A stretch of DNA of 64,000 nt from Lawsonibacter sp. (GTDB lineage: Bacteria; Bacillota; Clostridia; Oscillospirales; Oscillospiraceae), in assembly GCA_022796195.1 (NCBI GenBank), contig JAAWIE010000001.1, positions 62,001 through 126,000 on the forward strand. Direction: 5' to 3'. The translations under genes and the position numbers were made by a program. Below the pieces are notes generated by a model. It saw only the letters and a list, made by a program, of their open reading frames with translations. It had not been told where the DNA came from and searched no databases. Positions 7,268-35,605 of this stretch are shown here, piece after piece (within the stretch, counting starts at the first letter, position 1; each line of letters starts with the position of its first letter).

Positions 7268-7972
7268 TCATCCATGTATGGGAGGACGGGCCCCGAACAG
7301 GGCCGTACCCACCCGAACTAGGGTGGCGCCCTCAGCGATGGCGTCCTCATAGTCGGCGCTCATGCCCATAGACAGACAGTCTACAACACTGTGATTATCC
7401 GCTATTTTCCCAATTATGTCAACAAGAAAATGGCGAATTTGAGCAAAATATTTTCGGTTGGAGCCGGAAAGCGTTGATACAGGCGGAATTGCCATCAATC
7501 CGCGCAGCCGGACGTGGGGGCATTTCATCGCCTGTTCAGCCAGAGCGGGCAGGTTTTCCGGCATACATCCGCCCTTGCTCTCCTCTCGGGCTGTGTTGAC
7601 CTCCAGCAAAATGTCCTGAACAATTCCCAGCTTGTCCGCTTGGAGCTCTACCGCCTGAAGGAGCCGGGTGGAATCGACTGAGTGGATGAGGGACACGTTT
7701 CCCACCACCTGCTTTACCTTGTTGGTCTGAAGGTGGCCGATGAAGTGGACCTCAGCCCCAGCATAGGCGTCCGCCCCCAGGTGGGCAGTCAGTTCCTGTA
7801 CCCGGTTTTCTCCGCACAGCCGGATACCTGCGGCAATTGCGGCGCGGATGGTCTCGTCCGTTTGTACCTTGGTAGCGGCGCATAAAGCGATTTCCCCCGG
7901 TTCCCGCCCTGCCGCCCGGGCGGCGGCGGCAATCTTTTCCTGAACAGCTCTCACATTTTGGGTCAGGTCCAT
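7268..7972 (-). CDS. yggS: YggS-family pyridoxal phosphate homeostasis protein
   Basis: PLP-binding protein of the PROSC/YlmE family that buffers pyridoxal phosphate; no catalytic activity is known. The start at 7972 (234 residues) follows GAGAAGGAAACAG and begins MDLTQNVRAV, in line with family length; an upstream ATG in the same frame would add an unconserved stretch. The PLP-lysine is in CAATKVQ (about residue 35), and GENRVQEL, FIGHLQTNK and SMGMSADYEDAI are family motifs. It lies upstream of sepF and divIVA as in most Firmicutes, with 148 bases of apparently empty sequence before sepF. Confidence 0.92.
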   Translation of the reverse strand: MDLTQNVRAVQEKIAAAARAAGREPGEIALCAATKVQTDETIRAAIAAGIRLCGENRVQELTAHLGADAYAGAEVHFIGHLQTNKVKQVVGNVSLIHSVDSTRLLQAVELQADKLGIVQDILLEVNTAREESKGGCMPENLPALAEQAMKCPHVRLRGLMAIPPVSTLSGSNRKYFAQIRHFLVDIIGKIADNHSVVDCLSMGMSADYEDAIAEGATLVRVGTALFGARPPIHG

Positions 7973-8054
7973 CCTGTTTCCTTCTCTCTGTCTTAAAATT
8001 TGTCCTCCCCCGGAGGAAGAGGGTGTGAACGGGCCCAAACGCCTAGCACTTCGC

Positions 8055-9326
8055 TTATGTTTCCAGCGTCAGGCCGTCGATCAGGCCGGTCGCATGGGTG
8101 ATGATCACGTCTCCGTCCCGGAGGACTTTTTTTCCGGTCCCCAGGGGACGAACCACATAGTAATCCTCGTCCTCGTGGACAATCGATACCTCCCGCATCT
8201 CGGCGTGGCCGTTAACGCTGGCGTACACCACCAGCTTTTTCACCACTACAGGGGGGGCGCTGGAGTCAGGGTCCTCCTCGGTTACCTCCTCCAGATGGAG
8301 GGCTGCCTTGGGGATGCGCAGGCCGGACCAGCGGGAGAAAATCAGCTCCACCGTTTGGTGTCTCAGCAAGGTGGTGAGCGTCAGGTAGCGGTTGGAGGAG
8401 AAGACCACCAAAGTTTGTTCCTGTTCGGTGGGGCCAATCAATTCCACTGTCATTTCCACCTCACGGTTCAGCTCACCGGAGAAGCGCAGAGTGGCGGAAT
8501 ATCCCTCCTCCAGCCGGCTGGCGGCCGTTTTGGGCAGGTTGGCAGCGAAATACCAGGTGTTGGAGGTAAGGAGTTTGCCCATGGCTTCACTGTCCTCCCC
8601 GGCGGGGTGGTTGATCAGCTCCTGAAGGGCGGAGGGAGTGAGCTGAAGCACACTTTCCGGGGTGAGCAGGGCCTCGTAGCCGTCCACCAGATTGGAGAAC
8701 ACCCCCGGTTCTGGAGCGGTGACCCGGGTGGTGGCCCGGGCGGACTGGCTGGTGAGGACCTTCAGCTCTCCGCCCAGCTGCTGACGCCGGGCGGTCAGGT
8801 CAGCGGAGGTCAGATTCTCGCCATAGGTGTAGCCCCGTTTGAGCACACTGCTCTTTACCTCCATCACCTGATCCCGCAGCTGGGTATACTCCCCCATGGC
8901 GTAGGAGGCCCGCAGGTCCACCACAGCCTCCAACACATCCTCATCCAGCCGGGCGGCAGAATCCAGGTCGGTTCCTTGGGAGATGGCGTAATCCAGCAGT
9001 TGAATCTCCATTTCCAGCTCCTCAATCTGGACCTGGCTGGCCTGGGCCTGACTGTCCCGGTAGACCAGGGCGATTTCTTGGCCGGAACCAACCTTCTCAC
9101 CCTCAGCCCGGGTGATTTCCAAAATACCGGGCTGAGCGGGGAGGACGCGGGCCTCCCGGACCACCAGGCCCTCCACCGTGACGCTGTCGTAGGCGGTATA
9201 GGAGTAGACCTGGGTGGTCCGGTAGGGGTCGTCCATGGCGTTGAAAATGTAGGCCGCGAAGTAGAGGGCGACAACTGCCGCCATGGCCAGAATGACAAAG
9301 GTAATCAGAGGTTTGCCTTGTTTCAT
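8055..9326 (-). CDS. HlyD-like membrane-anchored adaptor protein
   Basis: 423 residues with one N-terminal transmembrane segment (about residues 8-28) and an extracellular body arranged like membrane-fusion/adaptor proteins: a beta (biotinyl-lipoyl-like) half with the turn AEGEKVGSGQEIALVY (about 89-104), a coiled-coil hairpin (about 105-200), a second half-domain with APEPGVFSN (about 220), and a C-terminal beta-barrel region. No ABC or RND transporter gene is next to it. It lies between hfq and the division genes, a position such genes often occupy in Clostridia, so a cell-envelope role is more likely than classical efflux. Function unknown. Confidence 0.75.
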   Translation of the reverse strand: MKQGKPLITFVILAMAAVVALYFAAYIFNAMDDPYRTTQVYSYTAYDSVTVEGLVVREARVLPAQPGILEITRAEGEKVGSGQEIALVYRDSQAQASQVQIEELEMEIQLLDYAISQGTDLDSAARLDEDVLEAVVDLRASYAMGEYTQLRDQVMEVKSSVLKRGYTYGENLTSADLTARRQQLGGELKVLTSQSARATTRVTAPEPGVFSNLVDGYEALLTPESVLQLTPSALQELINHPAGEDSEAMGKLLTSNTWYFAANLPKTAASRLEEGYSATLRFSGELNREVEMTVELIGPTEQEQTLVVFSSNRYLTLTTLLRHQTVELIFSRWSGLRIPKAALHLEEVTEEDPDSSAPPVVVKKLVVYASVNGHAEMREVSIVHEDEDYYVVRPLGTGKKVLRDGDVIITHATGLIDGLTLET

Positions 9327-23140: not shown

Positions 23141-23214
23141 GCGGGTGTAGTTCAATGGTAGAATCCCAGCCTTCCAAGCTGGTCGCGTGGGTTCGATTCC
23201 CATCACCCGCTCCA
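23141..23214 (+). tRNA. tRNA-Gly (anticodon TCC)
   Basis: Full cloverleaf with acceptor GCGGGTG/CACCCGC, anticodon loop CTTCCAA, T-loop GTTCGATTC and an encoded CCA end. First gene of the operon. Confidence 0.97.
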
Positions 23215-23347
23215 ACGTCGCCGCAAGCTCCTGATTCCCCGCTTCCGCCTGGCGGCGAAAGCTCGCTCGCTCGTTCTCCTGCGGCACCCCTTTCAAATAC
23301 GGTCCGCAGGGATTGGGCTATGGGTCGGGAACAGGAGTGCGTAATAC

Positions 23348-23424
<77 letters not shown>

Positions 23425-23538
23425 CATCGGAGCAAGGTCCGGAACACCAGCGTTCCTCACACTGGGTTCCTGTGCATCCGCTGCAAATTGAGTCCGCTTT
23501 GCTGAGGTTCAGTTTGCCAGAAGAAAGAATCGTAATAT

Positions 23539-23615
23539 GGTGGGTATAGCTCAGTTGGTTAGAGCACCGGATTGTGGTTCCGGGTGTCGAGGGTTCGAAT
23601 CCCTTTACCCACCCC
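23539..23615 (+). tRNA. tRNA-His (anticodon GTG)
   Basis: Acceptor GTGGGTA/TACCCAC with the extra G at 23538 opposite the discriminator C, the histidine identity element; anticodon stem CCGGA/TCCGG, loop TTGTGGT, encoded CCA. Confidence 0.97.
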
Positions 23616-23672
23616 ACATGAAGGCGGAAGGGCCGGGGCTTCTGTTCCGGCCCAAAGTCTTTCCCCAGAGAC

Positions 23673-23747
23673 AGGGGTGTAGCCAAGTGGTAAGGCAAGG
23701 GACTTTGACTCCCTCACTCGCTGGTTCGAGTCCAGCCATCCCTGCCA
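23673..23747 (+). tRNA. tRNA-Gln (anticodon TTG)
   Basis: Acceptor AGGGGTG/CATCCCT with one G-U pair, anticodon stem AGGGA/TCCCT with loop CTTTGAC, encoded CCA. Confidence 0.96.
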
Positions 23748-23788
23748 AACCGCCTTGCGCGGTATCATTTATCTGCGCCGTATTGTTT

Positions 23789-23864
23789 GACCCGTTAGCT
23801 CAGCCGGTAGAGCAACTGCCTTTTAAGCCGTGGGTCCGGGGTTCGAATCCCCGACGGGTCACCA
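23789..23864 (+). tRNA. tRNA-Lys (anticodon TTT)
   Basis: Acceptor GACCCGT/ACGGGTC, anticodon loop CTTTTAA, encoded CCA. The anticodon stem ACTGC/GCCGT contains a T-C mismatch in its middle pair; the rest of the cloverleaf is normal. Confidence 0.95.
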
Positions 23865-23865
23865 C

Positions 23866-23898
23866 GCCGGAGCAAAGTCCGCTTTGCTCCGGCGATTT
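23866..23898 (+). terminator. Terminator of the five-tRNA operon
   Basis: Perfect 12-bp stem GCCGGAGCAAAG/CTTTGCTCCGGC starting just after the CCA of tRNA-Lys, followed by GATTTTA. Confidence 0.8.
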
Positions 23899-23948
23899 TA
23901 TCCCATAAATCTGTATCTCGGTTCATAGCCGGCTTCTTAAAATTCTTC

Positions 23949-23977
23949 TTGCAAAGTGCTCCGGAATGTGATACAAT
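23949..23977 (+). promoter_or_regulatory. Promoter of tRNA-Gly(CCC)
   Basis: TTGCAA, a 17-base spacer and TACAAT, 18 bases before the tRNA, giving it its own transcription unit. Confidence 0.8.
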
Positions 23978-23995
23978 AGTCAAAGATAGACGTGT

Positions 23996-24069
23996 GCAGG
24001 TGTAGTTCAATGGCAGAATGTCAGCTTCCCAAGCTGAACACGAGGGTTCGATTCCCTTCACCTGCTCCA
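23996..24069 (+). tRNA. tRNA-Gly (anticodon CCC)
   Basis: Acceptor GCAGGTG/CACCTGC, anticodon stem TCAGC/GCTGA with loop TTCCCAA, encoded CCA. It has its own promoter and terminator. Confidence 0.97.
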
Positions 24070-29571: not shown

Positions 29572-29775
29572 CGGAATTAACAGCTTTTTAACGGGTCAAA
29601 ACAGAAGAAAAGCGGGAAATTAACGGCAGAAAGCTGAGCAGAAATCACAAAACGCAGACAAAAACCTGGATTAGCGGCGGGGGACGGCGTTCCCATCTGC
29701 GCACCGTTTTCCCGGCGCACGGTTCGAGCGGGTTTGCTTTAGATGTTGCAGCTTTCTCTATTTTTCGCGGCTGTA

Positions 29776-29804
29776 TTGACTTTTCCGGGAGCAGCTGATA
29801 TACT
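29776..29804 (+). promoter_or_regulatory. Sigma-A promoter of the dnd operon with operator-like palindrome
   Basis: TTGACT, a 17-base spacer and TATACT, 35 bases upstream of dndB. The inverted repeat ACTTA-CGTATATA-TAAGT (29802-29819) overlaps the -10 and the start-site region and could bind a repressor, possibly DndB itself, which is known to repress dnd transcription in other bacteria. Confidence 0.8.
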
Positions 29805-29838
29805 TACGTATATATAAGTTCCGATGGGAGGGGAGAGT

Positions 29839-30894
29839 ATGTTTTATCGTTTTCCTGCCATGAAAGGTGTGCAGGCAAACAGAGAGTATTTTGTCTGCAT
29901 GATCCCTCTGGGTGTGCTTTCCAAAATTTTCGTGGATGAACCTTCGGACACACTGCCAGAATTTCGCGCCCAAAGAAAGCTGAATGAAAAAAGAATCCCG
30001 GAAATCGAACGCTACATCTTAGACAATCGAAACTCCTATGTCTTTTCAGCCCTTACCGCATCTGTAGATGGACAGATTTTCTTTTCCCCTATGGGCAAGT
30101 CGGGGGACATTGGAGAGCTGGAAATTGACATCAGCGCGACGTTTTTAATCAACGACGGCCAGCACCGAAAAGCCGCCATTCTCGAAGCGATTGAGTCAGA
30201 CGAGAGTTTGAAGGAGGAGACAATTTCCGTTGTACTGTACCGGGACCAGGGGCTGGCGAATAGCCAGCAGATGTTTACGGACCTGAACAAACACGCAATC
30301 AACGCCTCAAAATCGCTGAACACCCTGTATGACTCCAAAGACCCAATGGCCGTCATGACTAAGCACGTTGTCTCCCAAGTACCTTTTTTACGGAAGTATA
30401 CCGACAAAGAAAAGGATAACCTTGCCCAATACGCGGCTAAGCTCTTTACGCTGAATGTGCTTTACGATGTGAACAAGCGTATTATCAAAAGCCCAGTGGA
30501 CATCAAGGGGGAAACCGAGTATCTGGTTTTCTTTTGGACGCTGGTTACGGCCAATATGCGGGAATGGAACGACATGGACCGGGGGGAACTGAGCAAAAAA
30601 GAGCTGCGAGAGGCGTACATTTCTCTGCGCGGCATCACGCTGCACGCCTTTGGAAAGCTGGGGAACTATCTCTTCCGGCACCCGGAACTGGAGCTCGGAA
30701 AATGTCTGGCCGGACTGGCGGATATTGATTGGTCCCGGAGCAATCTGGAGTGCTGGCAGAACCGCGCGATCACGGACAAGGGCCGGATTAACCGCAACGA
30801 GAAAGGAATTTTTTTGACCTATGTTCAAATCAAGCGGCTGCTTCAGCTAACAATTGAACCGGAAGAAGCTGCAAGGGAGAAGCAATTACTATGA
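29839..30894 (+). CDS. dndB: DNA phosphorothioation protein DndB
   Basis: DGQHR-domain protein of the DNA sulfur-modification system. 351 residues from the ATG at 29839, which follows GGAGGGGAG; five extra upstream codons are open but lack a ribosome site. The hallmark NDGQHRKAAI lies at about 112-121, with the partner segment FTDLNKHAINASKSLN at about 153-168. In characterised systems DndB controls modification frequency and represses the operon. First gene of dndBCDE; its stop overlaps the dndC start (ATGA). The operon is more A+T rich than flanking genes, suggesting horizontal acquisition. Confidence 0.93.
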   Translation: MFYRFPAMKGVQANREYFVCMIPLGVLSKIFVDEPSDTLPEFRAQRKLNEKRIPEIERYILDNRNSYVFSALTASVDGQIFFSPMGKSGDIGELEIDISATFLINDGQHRKAAILEAIESDESLKEETISVVLYRDQGLANSQQMFTDLNKHAINASKSLNTLYDSKDPMAVMTKHVVSQVPFLRKYTDKEKDNLAQYAAKLFTLNVLYDVNKRIIKSPVDIKGETEYLVFFWTLVTANMREWNDMDRGELSKKELREAYISLRGITLHAFGKLGNYLFRHPELELGKCLAGLADIDWSRSNLECWQNRAITDKGRINRNEKGIFLTYVQIKRLLQLTIEPEEAAREKQLL

Positions 30895-32258
30895 ACGAAA
30901 TAGAGCGCCAGATCTTTGAAAATATCATCCAGGAAATTATGATGGTTTACCGCCACGACAGCCGGCCGTGGCTGATTGGCTACAGCGGGGGAAAAGATTC
31001 CACCCTTCTGGTATCGCTGGTCTTTCAGGCGGTTGCCAGGATTCCCGCGGAACAGCGGAGCAAAAAGGTGTATGTTATTACCTCGGACACCATGGTGGAA
31101 AATCCCATCGTAAAAAAGTATATGCACGAATCCTCAGAAAAAATCTCGGAAGCTTCAGAGCGGCAGAAACTAAACATTCAGGCGAAAATTATATACCCCG
31201 ACATTCAGCAGACGTTTTGGGCCAGAGTGATCGGACTGGGCTACCCTACGCCTGAGGCGCCAGGGTTCCGGTGGTGTACCGAGCGGCTGAAAATAAATCC
31301 GATGAACAAGTTTGTGGACGAATGTATCAAAACAAACGGCGAAATTATCATCCTGCTTGGCGTGCGAAAGGCGGAGAGCGCCGCTCGTTCGCGCAGTATC
31401 TCGGAAAAAGAAATCGCGGGTTATCTCTTAAACCCCCACAACAATATCAGCAACGCCTATGTATACAATCCTTTAACTGAAATCGAAAACAGCTTGGTCT
31501 GGGAGTATCTCCTTGAGGATGATGGAATCAGTCCCTGGGGAACCAACATGCGGCAGCTCTTTTCCCTGTATCAAGGTGAGAATTTAAGCGAAGAACAGAG
31601 CGTACTGGGGGAAATTGATGAAAAGAAGATTCCCATTACCGGAAATTCACGCTTTGGCTGCTGGTGCTGTACGCTGGTGAAAAAGGACAAGTCGCTGCAA
31701 AGTTTCATCGATAAAGGGGCGAAAGAACTGCGCCCCCTCCAAGAGTTCCGGGATTGGCTGGTCAGTATCCGCCAGGACCCGGAATTCCGGGATGTAAAGC
31801 GGCGAAACGGGACCGTATATACTAAGGCCAATGGGGAGACCGGCTTCGGCCCGTTCACACTGGAGGCCCGCCGGACCATTTTGAGAAATCTGCTGGAGCT
31901 GCAAAAAAAGACCAAGATGACCCTCATTACCATCGATGAGCTGAAGGTAATTGACGAGATGTGGGACAACGACGGCGATTTGGAACGGCGGCACCTGGTT
32001 GACCTGTATTATGAGGTGACCGGAGAGCGGCTGCCTTGGGATGCGTATAAGGTTCCCATGTATCATTCGGAAATTGTTGGGGAAATTGATCAGATCGCGG
32101 GCAAATACAATTTAGAGCCGGAATTGATGAAAAAGTTGATCGTATCTGTGGATAAAAACAAGCATTTTACCCGCAGCAACACGATCAAAAAAGAGGTCGC
32201 ACGGATTATCAATCAGGAGTGGCTCCATCAAGACCATCTGCCAGAGGGAATAAAATGA
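30891..32258 (+). CDS. dndC: DNA phosphorothioation sulfurtransferase DndC
   Basis: ATP-pyrophosphatase of the PAPS-reductase family that passes sulfur to the DNA backbone. 455 residues. PP-loop SGGKDST at 32-38; cysteines for the 4Fe-4S cluster at 129 (FRWCTERLK) and 257/259/260 (FGCWCCTLV). The sulfur donor cysteine desulfurase DndA is absent from the operon, so a chromosomal IscS/NifS enzyme is presumed to serve. Start and stop each overlap the neighbouring gene by four bases, so dndB, dndC and dndD are translationally coupled. Confidence 0.95.
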   Translation: MNEIERQIFENIIQEIMMVYRHDSRPWLIGYSGGKDSTLLVSLVFQAVARIPAEQRSKKVYVITSDTMVENPIVKKYMHESSEKISEASERQKLNIQAKIIYPDIQQTFWARVIGLGYPTPEAPGFRWCTERLKINPMNKFVDECIKTNGEIIILLGVRKAESAARSRSISEKEIAGYLLNPHNNISNAYVYNPLTEIENSLVWEYLLEDDGISPWGTNMRQLFSLYQGENLSEEQSVLGEIDEKKIPITGNSRFGCWCCTLVKKDKSLQSFIDKGAKELRPLQEFRDWLVSIRQDPEFRDVKRRNGTVYTKANGETGFGPFTLEARRTILRNLLELQKKTKMTLITIDELKVIDEMWDNDGDLERRHLVDLYYEVTGERLPWDAYKVPMYHSEIVGEIDQIAGKYNLEPELMKKLIVSVDKNKHFTRSNTIKKEVARIINQEWLHQDHLPEGIK

Positions 32259-34360
32259 GAATCAAACAACTAAAGCTGCACAATATCGGTCCCTTTGCCG
32301 GTGAGCACAGTTTTTCGTTTCATACGGAAGATCCTCAGAAACAGATTGTGATTATCGGCGGGCGCAACGGGGCGGGGAAAACCACACTGTTTGAGGCCAT
32401 TCGCTTATGTCTGTATGGGTATAAGCTCTATGGCTACCGCCAGAACAGCCAGACCTACACCAGTAAAATCAAGCGGCTGATCAATGATCGAGCCAAGCAG
32501 ACTCTCCCCGCCGCTGCCGGGGTCTCCATGGAAATCTTAATCGAAGACGGCTACGCGAACAGCGTCTTTGACATCCGCCGGCAGTGGGGGCTGGAGGGAA
32601 AGGCCCTTCAGGAGGGATGGTTTATCCATAAGGACGGAATTCCTCTCACAGCAGATGAGGTTCAGGACTTTGACAGCTATCTGATGCAGACCTTCCCCCC
32701 TGCCCTGTTTAACTTTCACTTTCTGGATGGGGAGAAAATCTCCGAGTTTATCTTTGACCGCACAAACGCAGAACCGTTTCGCAAAGCGTTTTTACAGATC
32801 TGCGGTCTGGATACCTTTGACTTGATTGAAGAGCAGCTCAGTTCCCGTACCACCAGGAAAAGCGCAAAAGGCAGTGCCCAGGAGGATTACGAGGCGGCGC
32901 GGGCGCAGATGGCGCAGGCGGAAGAGCGGCACAACCGCGCCGCCGCTCAGGTGCAGACCATTCAAACGGACATTGACTCCCTCCGCGATCAAATCGCCGT
33001 ATTGGACGATGCGATGCAGCAGTACGGGGGGATTGCGCACGATGAGTGGACCGCCTTTGAAGAAAGCATGCTGGAGGAGGAACGCAGACGGAACGAGATG
33101 CGCTATGCCTTGAAAACAGCGGCGAACGATGTTGTGCCGTTTATCATTTTGGACCGTCAGCTGGAGGGACTGAAACAGCAGCTCATCCACGAGGAACAGC
33201 TGAAGCGAAACCGGCTGTTTCACGAAAAGCTCTTCGACTCCACCGCCAGAGAAAAATTGGAACGGGAATTGGCGCCCCTGCTCCTGCTGCCGGAAACCGG
33301 CATCTCCGACGCATTGGTGAACGCCCTCTATCAGGCGCTGAGTGAAGAAGTTCCCTGCGGCGGGGCAGAAATCCTAAAACTGTCTGAACATGAAACGGTG
33401 GATTTGCTCGCCAAAATCCGTTATTACCAGGGCTATCCGATACAAAACCTGATTGATGCAGAACGTTCCGTTGAGGACTCTCTCAACCGCACTAAAGAGC
33501 TTCGCGTCAAGATGGAGGCAAAGGAAAGAATTGGTTCCGACCACTATTTGGGGAAGAAAAATGAGCTTCTGATGCAGTTGGATACTCTTCAGCAGCAGCT
33601 AATCGAGGCGCGGGAGCGGCTGTTACACTGCATCGAGGAGCTGAAAACCGCGCAAAAGAACTTCCAGACGGCGTTTGAGGGCTACAAAGCCCTTTTGAAA
33701 GAAAAATCCGTTCTGGATATGTCGGCCAGGGCTCTGCTGGCATTTGGCGAGCTGAAACAGAATTTGTTTGCGAAATATGTCTCCATGGTGGAACAATCCT
33801 TTTCTCACAACTTTCATCAGCTTATCAGCAAGACCGGCTTAATCGATGGAATATACATCAGCTCTTCCTTTGAAATTATTGCCTATAAACAGTCGGAGGT
33901 CAATATATCAGATTTGTTCCGGCAGATTCAGGAGTACGGCGAAGACTATGTTTCAGCCGCAGTCGGCGAGCGGGCATATCAGGCGGTGAAAAACAGCGGA
34001 CGCACCAGTGGGATCCTCTCCCTGCCAGTCAAAGTGGAGCAGCATTTCTCCGCCGGGGAACAGCAAATTTTTGTCATGGCGCTCTATCAATCTCTGGCCG
34101 GGCTCCGGACCTTTGAGCTTCCCTTTGTGATGGACACCCCCCTTGCGCGGATCGACAGTGAGCATCGAAAAAATATTCTTACCGCTTTCTTCTCCCAGCT
34201 CTCGGGTCAGGTTATTATTTTGTCGACAGACGAAGAGATTAACACAGACGGACTGGCCCTTCTGGACGGTAAAATCTCTGATGTATATTTGCTGGAGCAT
34301 AAAGAAAACGGAGTCAGTTCTGTCCGCAAAGATTTTTATTTCGAGGGGGTGGTCCTTTGA
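32255..34360 (+). CDS. dndD: DNA phosphorothioation ATPase DndD
   Basis: SMC/RecN-like ATPase thought to act on DNA during phosphorothioation. 701 residues from the ATG overlapping the dndC stop. Walker A GGRNGAGKTT at 35-44, a conserved FHFLDGEKISEFIF segment (about 149-162), a central coiled-coil pair (about 205-290 and 410-500) and a C-terminal ABC half with the signature-like LSAGEQQ equivalent HFSAGEQQIF (about 599-608) and Walker B LPFVMDTPLARID (about 625-637). Full length and undamaged. Confidence 0.95.
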   Translation: MRIKQLKLHNIGPFAGEHSFSFHTEDPQKQIVIIGGRNGAGKTTLFEAIRLCLYGYKLYGYRQNSQTYTSKIKRLINDRAKQTLPAAAGVSMEILIEDGYANSVFDIRRQWGLEGKALQEGWFIHKDGIPLTADEVQDFDSYLMQTFPPALFNFHFLDGEKISEFIFDRTNAEPFRKAFLQICGLDTFDLIEEQLSSRTTRKSAKGSAQEDYEAARAQMAQAEERHNRAAAQVQTIQTDIDSLRDQIAVLDDAMQQYGGIAHDEWTAFEESMLEEERRRNEMRYALKTAANDVVPFIILDRQLEGLKQQLIHEEQLKRNRLFHEKLFDSTAREKLERELAPLLLLPETGISDALVNALYQALSEEVPCGGAEILKLSEHETVDLLAKIRYYQGYPIQNLIDAERSVEDSLNRTKELRVKMEAKERIGSDHYLGKKNELLMQLDTLQQQLIEARERLLHCIEELKTAQKNFQTAFEGYKALLKEKSVLDMSARALLAFGELKQNLFAKYVSMVEQSFSHNFHQLISKTGLIDGIYISSSFEIIAYKQSEVNISDLFRQIQEYGEDYVSAAVGERAYQAVKNSGRTSGILSLPVKVEQHFSAGEQQIFVMALYQSLAGLRTFELPFVMDTPLARIDSEHRKNILTAFFSQLSGQVIILSTDEEINTDGLALLDGKISDVYLLEHKENGVSSVRKDFYFEGVVL

Positions 34361-34731
34361 TTTTCAGACTGAGAACCTCAAAAGAAACGATGAAAATCTT
34401 TGATACCATTCGGGTTTCCCAAGGATTGCAGCCGTTTTCCTTGTCGAAAATCGCAATCGCCCTGTCCATCCGGACCGGCGGACTCACGGATGAGGATTTC
34501 CGGACGGATACCGAAGGGCTGGAGCTGAACCGGCAGACGATATTTGGAGAATATGAGACCTTGTTCAAAGCTCTGCTTACGATGGAAAAAGGGACTACGC
34601 TGTCGAATGAGGAGTTTTTTCCAGCTTTGGTAAAGGCTCATTTAGATCGGGGCGCAAAGTTATTGCAGAATGAGTGCCGGTACGGAATGCGCTTTTATTC
34701 CAACCTTCTTAGTTTGGACAAAAACTTATAG
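34357..34731 (+). CDS. dndE: DNA phosphorothioation protein DndE
   Basis: Small helical protein required for phosphorothioation; its exact role is debated (nicked-DNA binding). 124 residues. The start is TTG at 34357, overlapping the dndD stop (TTGA), with GAGGGGG upstream; the first ATG in frame (34390) would remove the conserved FRLRTSKET start. Core segment FSLSKIAIALSIRTGG matches the family. Last gene of dndBCDE. No restriction genes (dndFGH) follow, and the next gene is the unrelated ylmH. Confidence 0.88.
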   Translation: MIFRLRTSKETMKIFDTIRVSQGLQPFSLSKIAIALSIRTGGLTDEDFRTDTEGLELNRQTIFGEYETLFKALLTMEKGTTLSNEEFFPALVKAHLDRGAKLLQNECRYGMRFYSNLLSLDKNL

Positions 34732-34804
34732 CTCAGAATCATAGGTATAGCGGCTGTCCCAACAAATGGAGGGCGGCACAGGACAAGAGAGGGAGGGCGC
34801 ATCT

Positions 34805-35605
34805 GTGAACAAAAAGGATCTGTTGGACCGCTGTGCCAGAGACGGAGAAGAGCGGATCCTTCTGGCCCGGGTACTGGACAAGCTGGAGCTCACCCAACAG
34901 CGGGATATTCCGGCCCACACGGTTTTTCTCTCTCCGGGAGAGCAGGGGGCGGTACGCGATCTGCTCTCCGCCTGGGGGCGGCCCCGGCATTTATTCTGGG
35001 GCGGCTATCCGGACAGTGAGCGGAATATTTGCTTTTTTCCCGCCGGCTGGCAGGAGGAGGACGCCCTGTGTTCCGACCCAGAGGGACCTCTGACCGCGTT
35101 GGAGGCCCAATTTTCCCCAAATGCTTCGCTTACCCACCGGGATATTCTGGGGTCCCTAATGGGCCTGGGCATCACCCGGGAGGTGCTGGGAGATATCCTT
35201 CTGCCCCGGCCGGACCTGTGCCAGGTGGTGGTCCTGCGGGACGCGGCCCCCATCCTCCTCTCCCAATGGGAGAGCGCCGGACGCTGGAAGGCCGGCTTGC
35301 AGGAGGTTTCCCTCACCCGCCTTACCCCCCGGCCCGCCCAGGTGAAGACCATTCGGGACACGGTGGCGACCCTCCGGCTGGACGCAGTAACCGCCTGCGG
35401 GTTTTCCCTGTCCCGGAGTAAGGCCGCGGCGCTGATCGCCTCGGGCAAGGTGGCGCTTAACCACCGGGAGTGCCTGAAAGCAGACCGCCCAGTAGCAGAG
35501 GGCGATGTGCTCACCTGCCGGGGGCTGGGGAAATGCGTGGTGAAGGAGGTGCCGGGACAGTCGAAAAAAGGGCGGACTATGCTGGTCATGGAGCGGTATC
35601 AATAG
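34805..35605 (+). CDS. ylmH: YlmH-family S4-domain RNA-binding protein
   Basis: 266 residues from a GTG at 34805, preceded by GAGGGAGGG; an ATG at 34766 would add unconserved residues. An N-terminal YlmH domain (about 1-170) is followed by an S4 RNA-binding domain (about 185-245) with ACGFSLSRSKAAALIASGKVALNH. YlmH proteins have been linked to ribosome-associated quality control and to cell division, and usually lie next to sepF and divIVA; here the gene is 28 kb from that group, just downstream of the dnd operon. Probably transcribed independently, although no clear promoter was seen in the 73-base gap. Confidence 0.88.
   Translation: MNKKDLLDRCARDGEERILLARVLDKLELTQQRDIPAHTVFLSPGEQGAVRDLLSAWGRPRHLFWGGYPDSERNICFFPAGWQEEDALCSDPEGPLTALEAQFSPNASLTHRDILGSLMGLGITREVLGDILLPRPDLCQVVVLRDAAPILLSQWESAGRWKAGLQEVSLTRLTPRPAQVKTIRDTVATLRLDAVTACGFSLSRSKAAALIASGKVALNHRECLKADRPVAEGDVLTCRGLGKCVVKEVPGQSKKGRTMLVMERYQ

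Follow-up and report, generated by a model that had tools for sequence, protein, structure and literature searches.

The dndBCDE operon and its control region

The window (the whole 64-kb stretch of DNA that was analysed, lying within contig C162 of the host draft genome) carries four complete reading frames, dndBCDE, arranged head-to-tail and overlapping, all on the plus strand. The genes, their control region and the ends of the block that holds them are as follows.

29628..29775, no strand assigned: left end of the foreign block; in blastn, the match of the activase 5' region to same-genus relatives breaks off at 29627-29669
29776..29804, plus strand: dndB promoter, TTGACT-17-TATACT (10/12 matches)
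29802..29819, plus strand: putative DndB operator, overlapping the -10 element and extending downstream of it: an intact box ACTTACGT, then a second, degenerate one, ATATAAGT
29839-30894, plus strand: dndB, DGQHR-type regulator (TIGR03233 DndB, 396.5 bits, cut-off 328)
30891-32258, plus strand: dndC, PAPS-reductase-like Fe-S sulfurtransferase (TIGR03183, 395.8 bits, cut-off 290.4)
32252-34360, plus strand: dndD, SMC-like ATPase (TIGR03185, 311.5 bits, cut-off 245.85)
34357-34731, plus strand: dndE, TTG start (PF08870, 67.4 bits, cut-off 25)
34732..34804, plus strand: right end of the block; from 34783-34805 onwards the sequence again matches ylmH loci of same-genus genomes

A second possible start of dndB is the in-frame ATG at 29824, and a GTG at 32219 offers a longer form of dndD. 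The PADLOC call agrees with the Dnd family assignment of the four genes. DndE is the weakest family match among them and falls below the stricter TIGR03184 cut-off (51.1 vs. 71.85 bits); it can be aligned over its full length with the DndE of relatives. Residues invariant in relatives are kept: DGQHR in DndB, SGGKDST and the cysteines of RWCT and FGCWCC in DndC, and the ATPase motifs GxNGAGKTT and DTPxARID in DndD. An earlier note on this DNA had described four coupled dnd genes with intact key motifs, which the reading frames, family scores and invariant residues confirm. Searches of PDB sequences with DndC, DndD and DndE gave no matches.

The TTGACT...TATACTTA arrangement is also present upstream of dndB in several members of the clade. 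Upstream of dndB, 10/10 compared loci (the window included) have one or more ACTTAAGT-like boxes with no more than one mismatch, and 8/10 have two. Throughout the clade, the dndB promoter and a tandem ACTTA(A/C)GT operator overlap; in the window its first box is intact and the second degraded. The boxes, read as ACTTACGT, are 12 bp apart, matching the spacing of the published Salmonella DndB site, TACG-N10-CGTA (PMC4507180). Capture of the host ylmH promoter by dnd was considered and rejected, because TTGACT-17-TATACTTA and the operator recur before dndB at other dnd loci.

No cysteine desulfurase gene lies within the dnd cluster. The lack of dndA is to be expected, since E. coli IscS can replace DndA and serve a dndB-E cluster devoid of it (PMC3519819). 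Four strong Aminotran_5 proteins are encoded elsewhere in the host genome; the one on contig C36 is closest to TIGR03402 NifS, i.e., of the NifS/IscS type. As judged by sequence, the components of a Dnd modification module are all present: DndC and DndD above their family cut-offs and with their motifs, DndE, DndB with an upstream operator box, and a desulfurase in the genome.

Flanks and origin of the block

G+C is 0.47-0.55 over the dnd operon vs. 0.57-0.61 in the surroundings (5-10 points lower), and GC3 is 0.57-0.62 in the dnd genes vs. ca. 0.70-0.75 around them, so that the block is indeed A+T-richer than its neighbours, as had been remarked before. To place the left junction, the window was compared by blastn with 19 same-genus activase loci. 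Both flanks resemble the genus closely, with identities of up to 93% for the activase and 81% for ylmH. The proposal of the earlier note that dnd was inserted between an activase operon and ylmH holds in part: both junctions can be placed, but an empty site is absent among the relatives examined. Activase and ylmH are adjacent in 0/18 extended ylmH loci of relatives, the gene upstream of the activase differs between relatives, and what surrounds each of the two genes differs greatly within the genus, so that rearrangement is ordinary there. The comparison of the ylmH upstream region in related strains, suggested earlier as a check for the empty site, was run and found none, as neither of the two flanks has a conserved neighbour in the genus. 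An activase-ylmH pair as the ancestral empty site is therefore unsupported.

Many relatives have a TTGACA-17-TATACT promoter in front of ylmH; the window ylmH lacks it and may therefore depend on read-through from dnd. Six consecutive tRNA genes (Gly, Arg, His, Gln, Lys, Gly) are located at 23141-24069 of the window, ca. 6 kb to the left of dnd.

The distribution of DndC is sporadic: 6/301 genomes of the family, 10/394 of the order and 4/391 of the class carry it (the window's genome is counted in each), and it occurs in 0/5 other same-genus genomes listed in the 301-genome family sample. The nearest DndC, with 83% identity, is that of Anaerotignum lactatifermentans An390 (locus L002), and the two are joined at full support in the DndC tree. 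Against Anaerotignum, dN is ca. 0.14 for dndB and ca. 0.07 for the N-terminal part of dndC, with synonymous sites saturated; this indicates strong purifying selection, which spans the whole divergence from Anaerotignum and is not datable to the solitary state or to the time since partner loss. The An390 dndC (L002:10001-11367) is frameshifted beside an A run, either in reality or by sequencing error.

A mobile-element origin was also considered and found no support. A plasmid DNA search with the window dnd gave no match, DndC proteins on plasmids are less than 40% identical among the matches listed, phage matches reach at most 48%, and viral-contig scans returned relatives at 35-44% only.

Partner genes in the host genome and in relatives

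The host genome is a draft of 2.68 Mb in 197 contigs (90.9% complete, 7.9% contamination), in which DndC is present as a single copy. Within the 64-kb window there is no vestige of DndFGH, PbeA, GmrSD, Mrr or AIPR, the sole significant cross-match being that of PbeC to DndD itself. Near the dnd operon no dndA, dndFGH, pbe, GmrSD or Mrr gene was found, in agreement with the earlier statement that no desulfurase, DndFGH or other restriction partner is encoded nearby. DndF and DndG were searched in the window only; the genome-wide partner searches covered DndH, PbeA, GmrSD_N and Mrr_cat.

TIGR03237 was negative in the host genome but silent in the controls too, and was replaced by a protein query, the DndH of genome G070. 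This protein has a DptH score of 619.7 bits, just below the TIGR03237 cut-off of 620.65, and the genes adjoining it are DptF (TIGR03238) and DptG (TIGR03236). The query had no match in the host draft genome, with both controls (G070 and G600) positive. GmrSD_N (DUF262, PF03235) likewise had no match in the draft while eight control genomes were positive; the test for an IscS-DndBCDE-DndI or SspE-type system used this domain as its query. There was no true match for PbeA in the draft, again with positive controls. The genome search for dndFGH/pbeABCD that had been recommended has thus yielded neither DndH nor a true PbeA. A weak helicase-domain match to PbeA (E 8.7e-6) fell on the same Mrr/helicase protein of contig C17 that gave the genome's only Mrr_cat match.

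The C17 region (L111, G000:C17, 2346-8403) is a defence-like island encoding a cytosine methyltransferase, a 798-aa ORF, the Mrr_cat/helicase protein, a 193-aa ORF and Vsr. Its Mrr_cat protein is unlikely to be the missing dnd partner, being part of a separate island.

For comparison, ten clostridial loci with a DndC at least 57% identical were assembled; one of these (L093) ends just upstream of dndB, leaving nine readable. A candidate partner adjoins dnd in 9/9 relatives with readable flanks, and the window is the exception. The partners beside dnd are as follows.

DndFGH: L039 (G070) and L095 (G600; dndB not called)
AIPR: L038 and L091
PbeA/PbeC-type genes: L090, L092, L094 and L125
HARE-HTH/Mrr_cat gene, before dndB or after dndE: L002, L090, L094 and L125

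The contig of L002 ends within dndD, so that this locus was read upstream of dnd only. AIPR-family proteins or their relatives were seen beside dnd in three genomes (L038:11815-12993, L091:6274-7473 and L040:14743-16107), with a putative link to phosphorothioation, and L090 encodes a 366-aa protein matching no Pfam or PADLOC family between dndB and dndC (7832-8932).

The HARE-HTH/Mrr_cat gene lies beside dnd, in varying positions, in 4/10 closest relatives (L002:7976-8800, L090:3664-4479, L094:6083-6910 and L125:1341-2153), and its products are 51-69% identical to the L002 copy. We regard this protein as a candidate phosphorothioate-linked nuclease; that it and the AIPR proteins act as effectors in the relatives is a guess from linkage. 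The Mrr protein was not found on viral contigs, and on plasmids it gave mostly partial matches of less than 50%, which did not extend the linkage. A search of titles and abstracts of open-access papers found no report of Mrr as a dnd partner.

Interpretation and alternatives

Solitary dndBCDE clusters are documented, e.g., in Pseudomonas fluorescens pf0-1 (PMC8569181), and the earlier note was right to call solitary Dnd modification already known. As in that strain, the modification genes of the window are complete and the cognate dndFGH is absent; the lineage differs, and here the draft genome was also tested for partner types beyond dndFGH. The DndBCDE-DndFGH systems of Salmonella enterica Cerro 87 and of two clade members (G070/L039 and G600/L095) share the same modification genes and a comparable operator geometry (PMC4507180), but the window lacks DndFGH and the host draft lacks DndH. 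DndCDEA-PbeABCD (PMC6459918) has homologous DndCDE; unlike the window, that archaeal system is devoid of DndB, whereas the window has no Pbe genes (PbeA being unmatched genome-wide as well). IscS-DndBCDE-DndI (PMC11662687) relies on a host desulfurase, as the window operon probably does, but no GmrSD_N-type protein was found in the host draft by the domain search. What is new here is the presence of a candidate partner beside dnd in every one of the closest relatives with readable flanks, a recurrent Mrr-type nuclease among them.

Most probably, the locus is an intact, DndB-regulated phosphorothioation operon standing alone, without a dedicated restriction module. A host desulfurase of the NifS/IscS type would supply sulfur to DndC, and DndC, DndD and DndE would place it in DNA at a short motif, with DndB repressing the operon through the ACTTA(A/C)GT box. 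The operon may have been acquired by horizontal transfer from a lineage of clostridia whose dnd genes normally come with a defence partner, this partner having been left behind or lost. In the present host the mark would then not lead to cutting, and could serve as a partial mark with an epigenetic or redox role.

The earlier note had allowed either for modification without cognate restriction or for restriction encoded elsewhere. The genome-wide negatives for DndH, GmrSD_N and PbeA favour the former, and weaken the latter without removing it in a 91%-complete draft. On that second account dndBCDE provides the modification for a defence system that is split, with an unlinked effector located in the missing ca. 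9% of the genome or of an unsearched type. An unlinked partner could be missed since the genome is incomplete, fragmented into 197 contigs and slightly contaminated; AIPR and SspFGH were outside the genome-wide searches, and all nine readable relatives have a candidate partner. These partners, however, are adjacent to dnd and not distant from it, and the four genome-wide searches produced nothing that fits, so that we consider a split system unlikely.

The absent partner and the degenerate second operator box would also be compatible with a decaying remnant that has lost DNA modification. Four intact frames with their invariant residues, a good dndB promoter and low dN, in contrast to the frameshifted dndC of Anaerotignum, make such decay very unlikely. 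A contig misjoin or binning artefact we hold to be highly improbable: there is 7.9% contamination and in no relative do the activase and ylmH lie side by side, but because both flanks match the genus so closely, two false joins would be required to bring in a single foreign piece, and rearrangement around the two genes is ordinary in the genus.

A bolder idea, which we regard as a long shot, is that the HARE-HTH/Mrr_cat protein is an undescribed recurrent effector of clostridial dnd, that the window lineage dropped it while retaining the mark for a different purpose, and that ylmH, its usual promoter lost, may now be transcribed from the dnd promoter under DndB control. If true, this would tie an RNA-binding S4-domain gene, ylmH, to phosphorothioation via the dnd promoter. 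The recurrent Mrr gene is in any case a concrete candidate effector and the most promising side result of this work. The locus itself bears on why bacteria retain phosphorothioation without restriction, and provides, inside a single DndC clade, a natural comparison between the window operon standing alone and similar modification genes beside DndFGH, Pbe, AIPR or Mrr.
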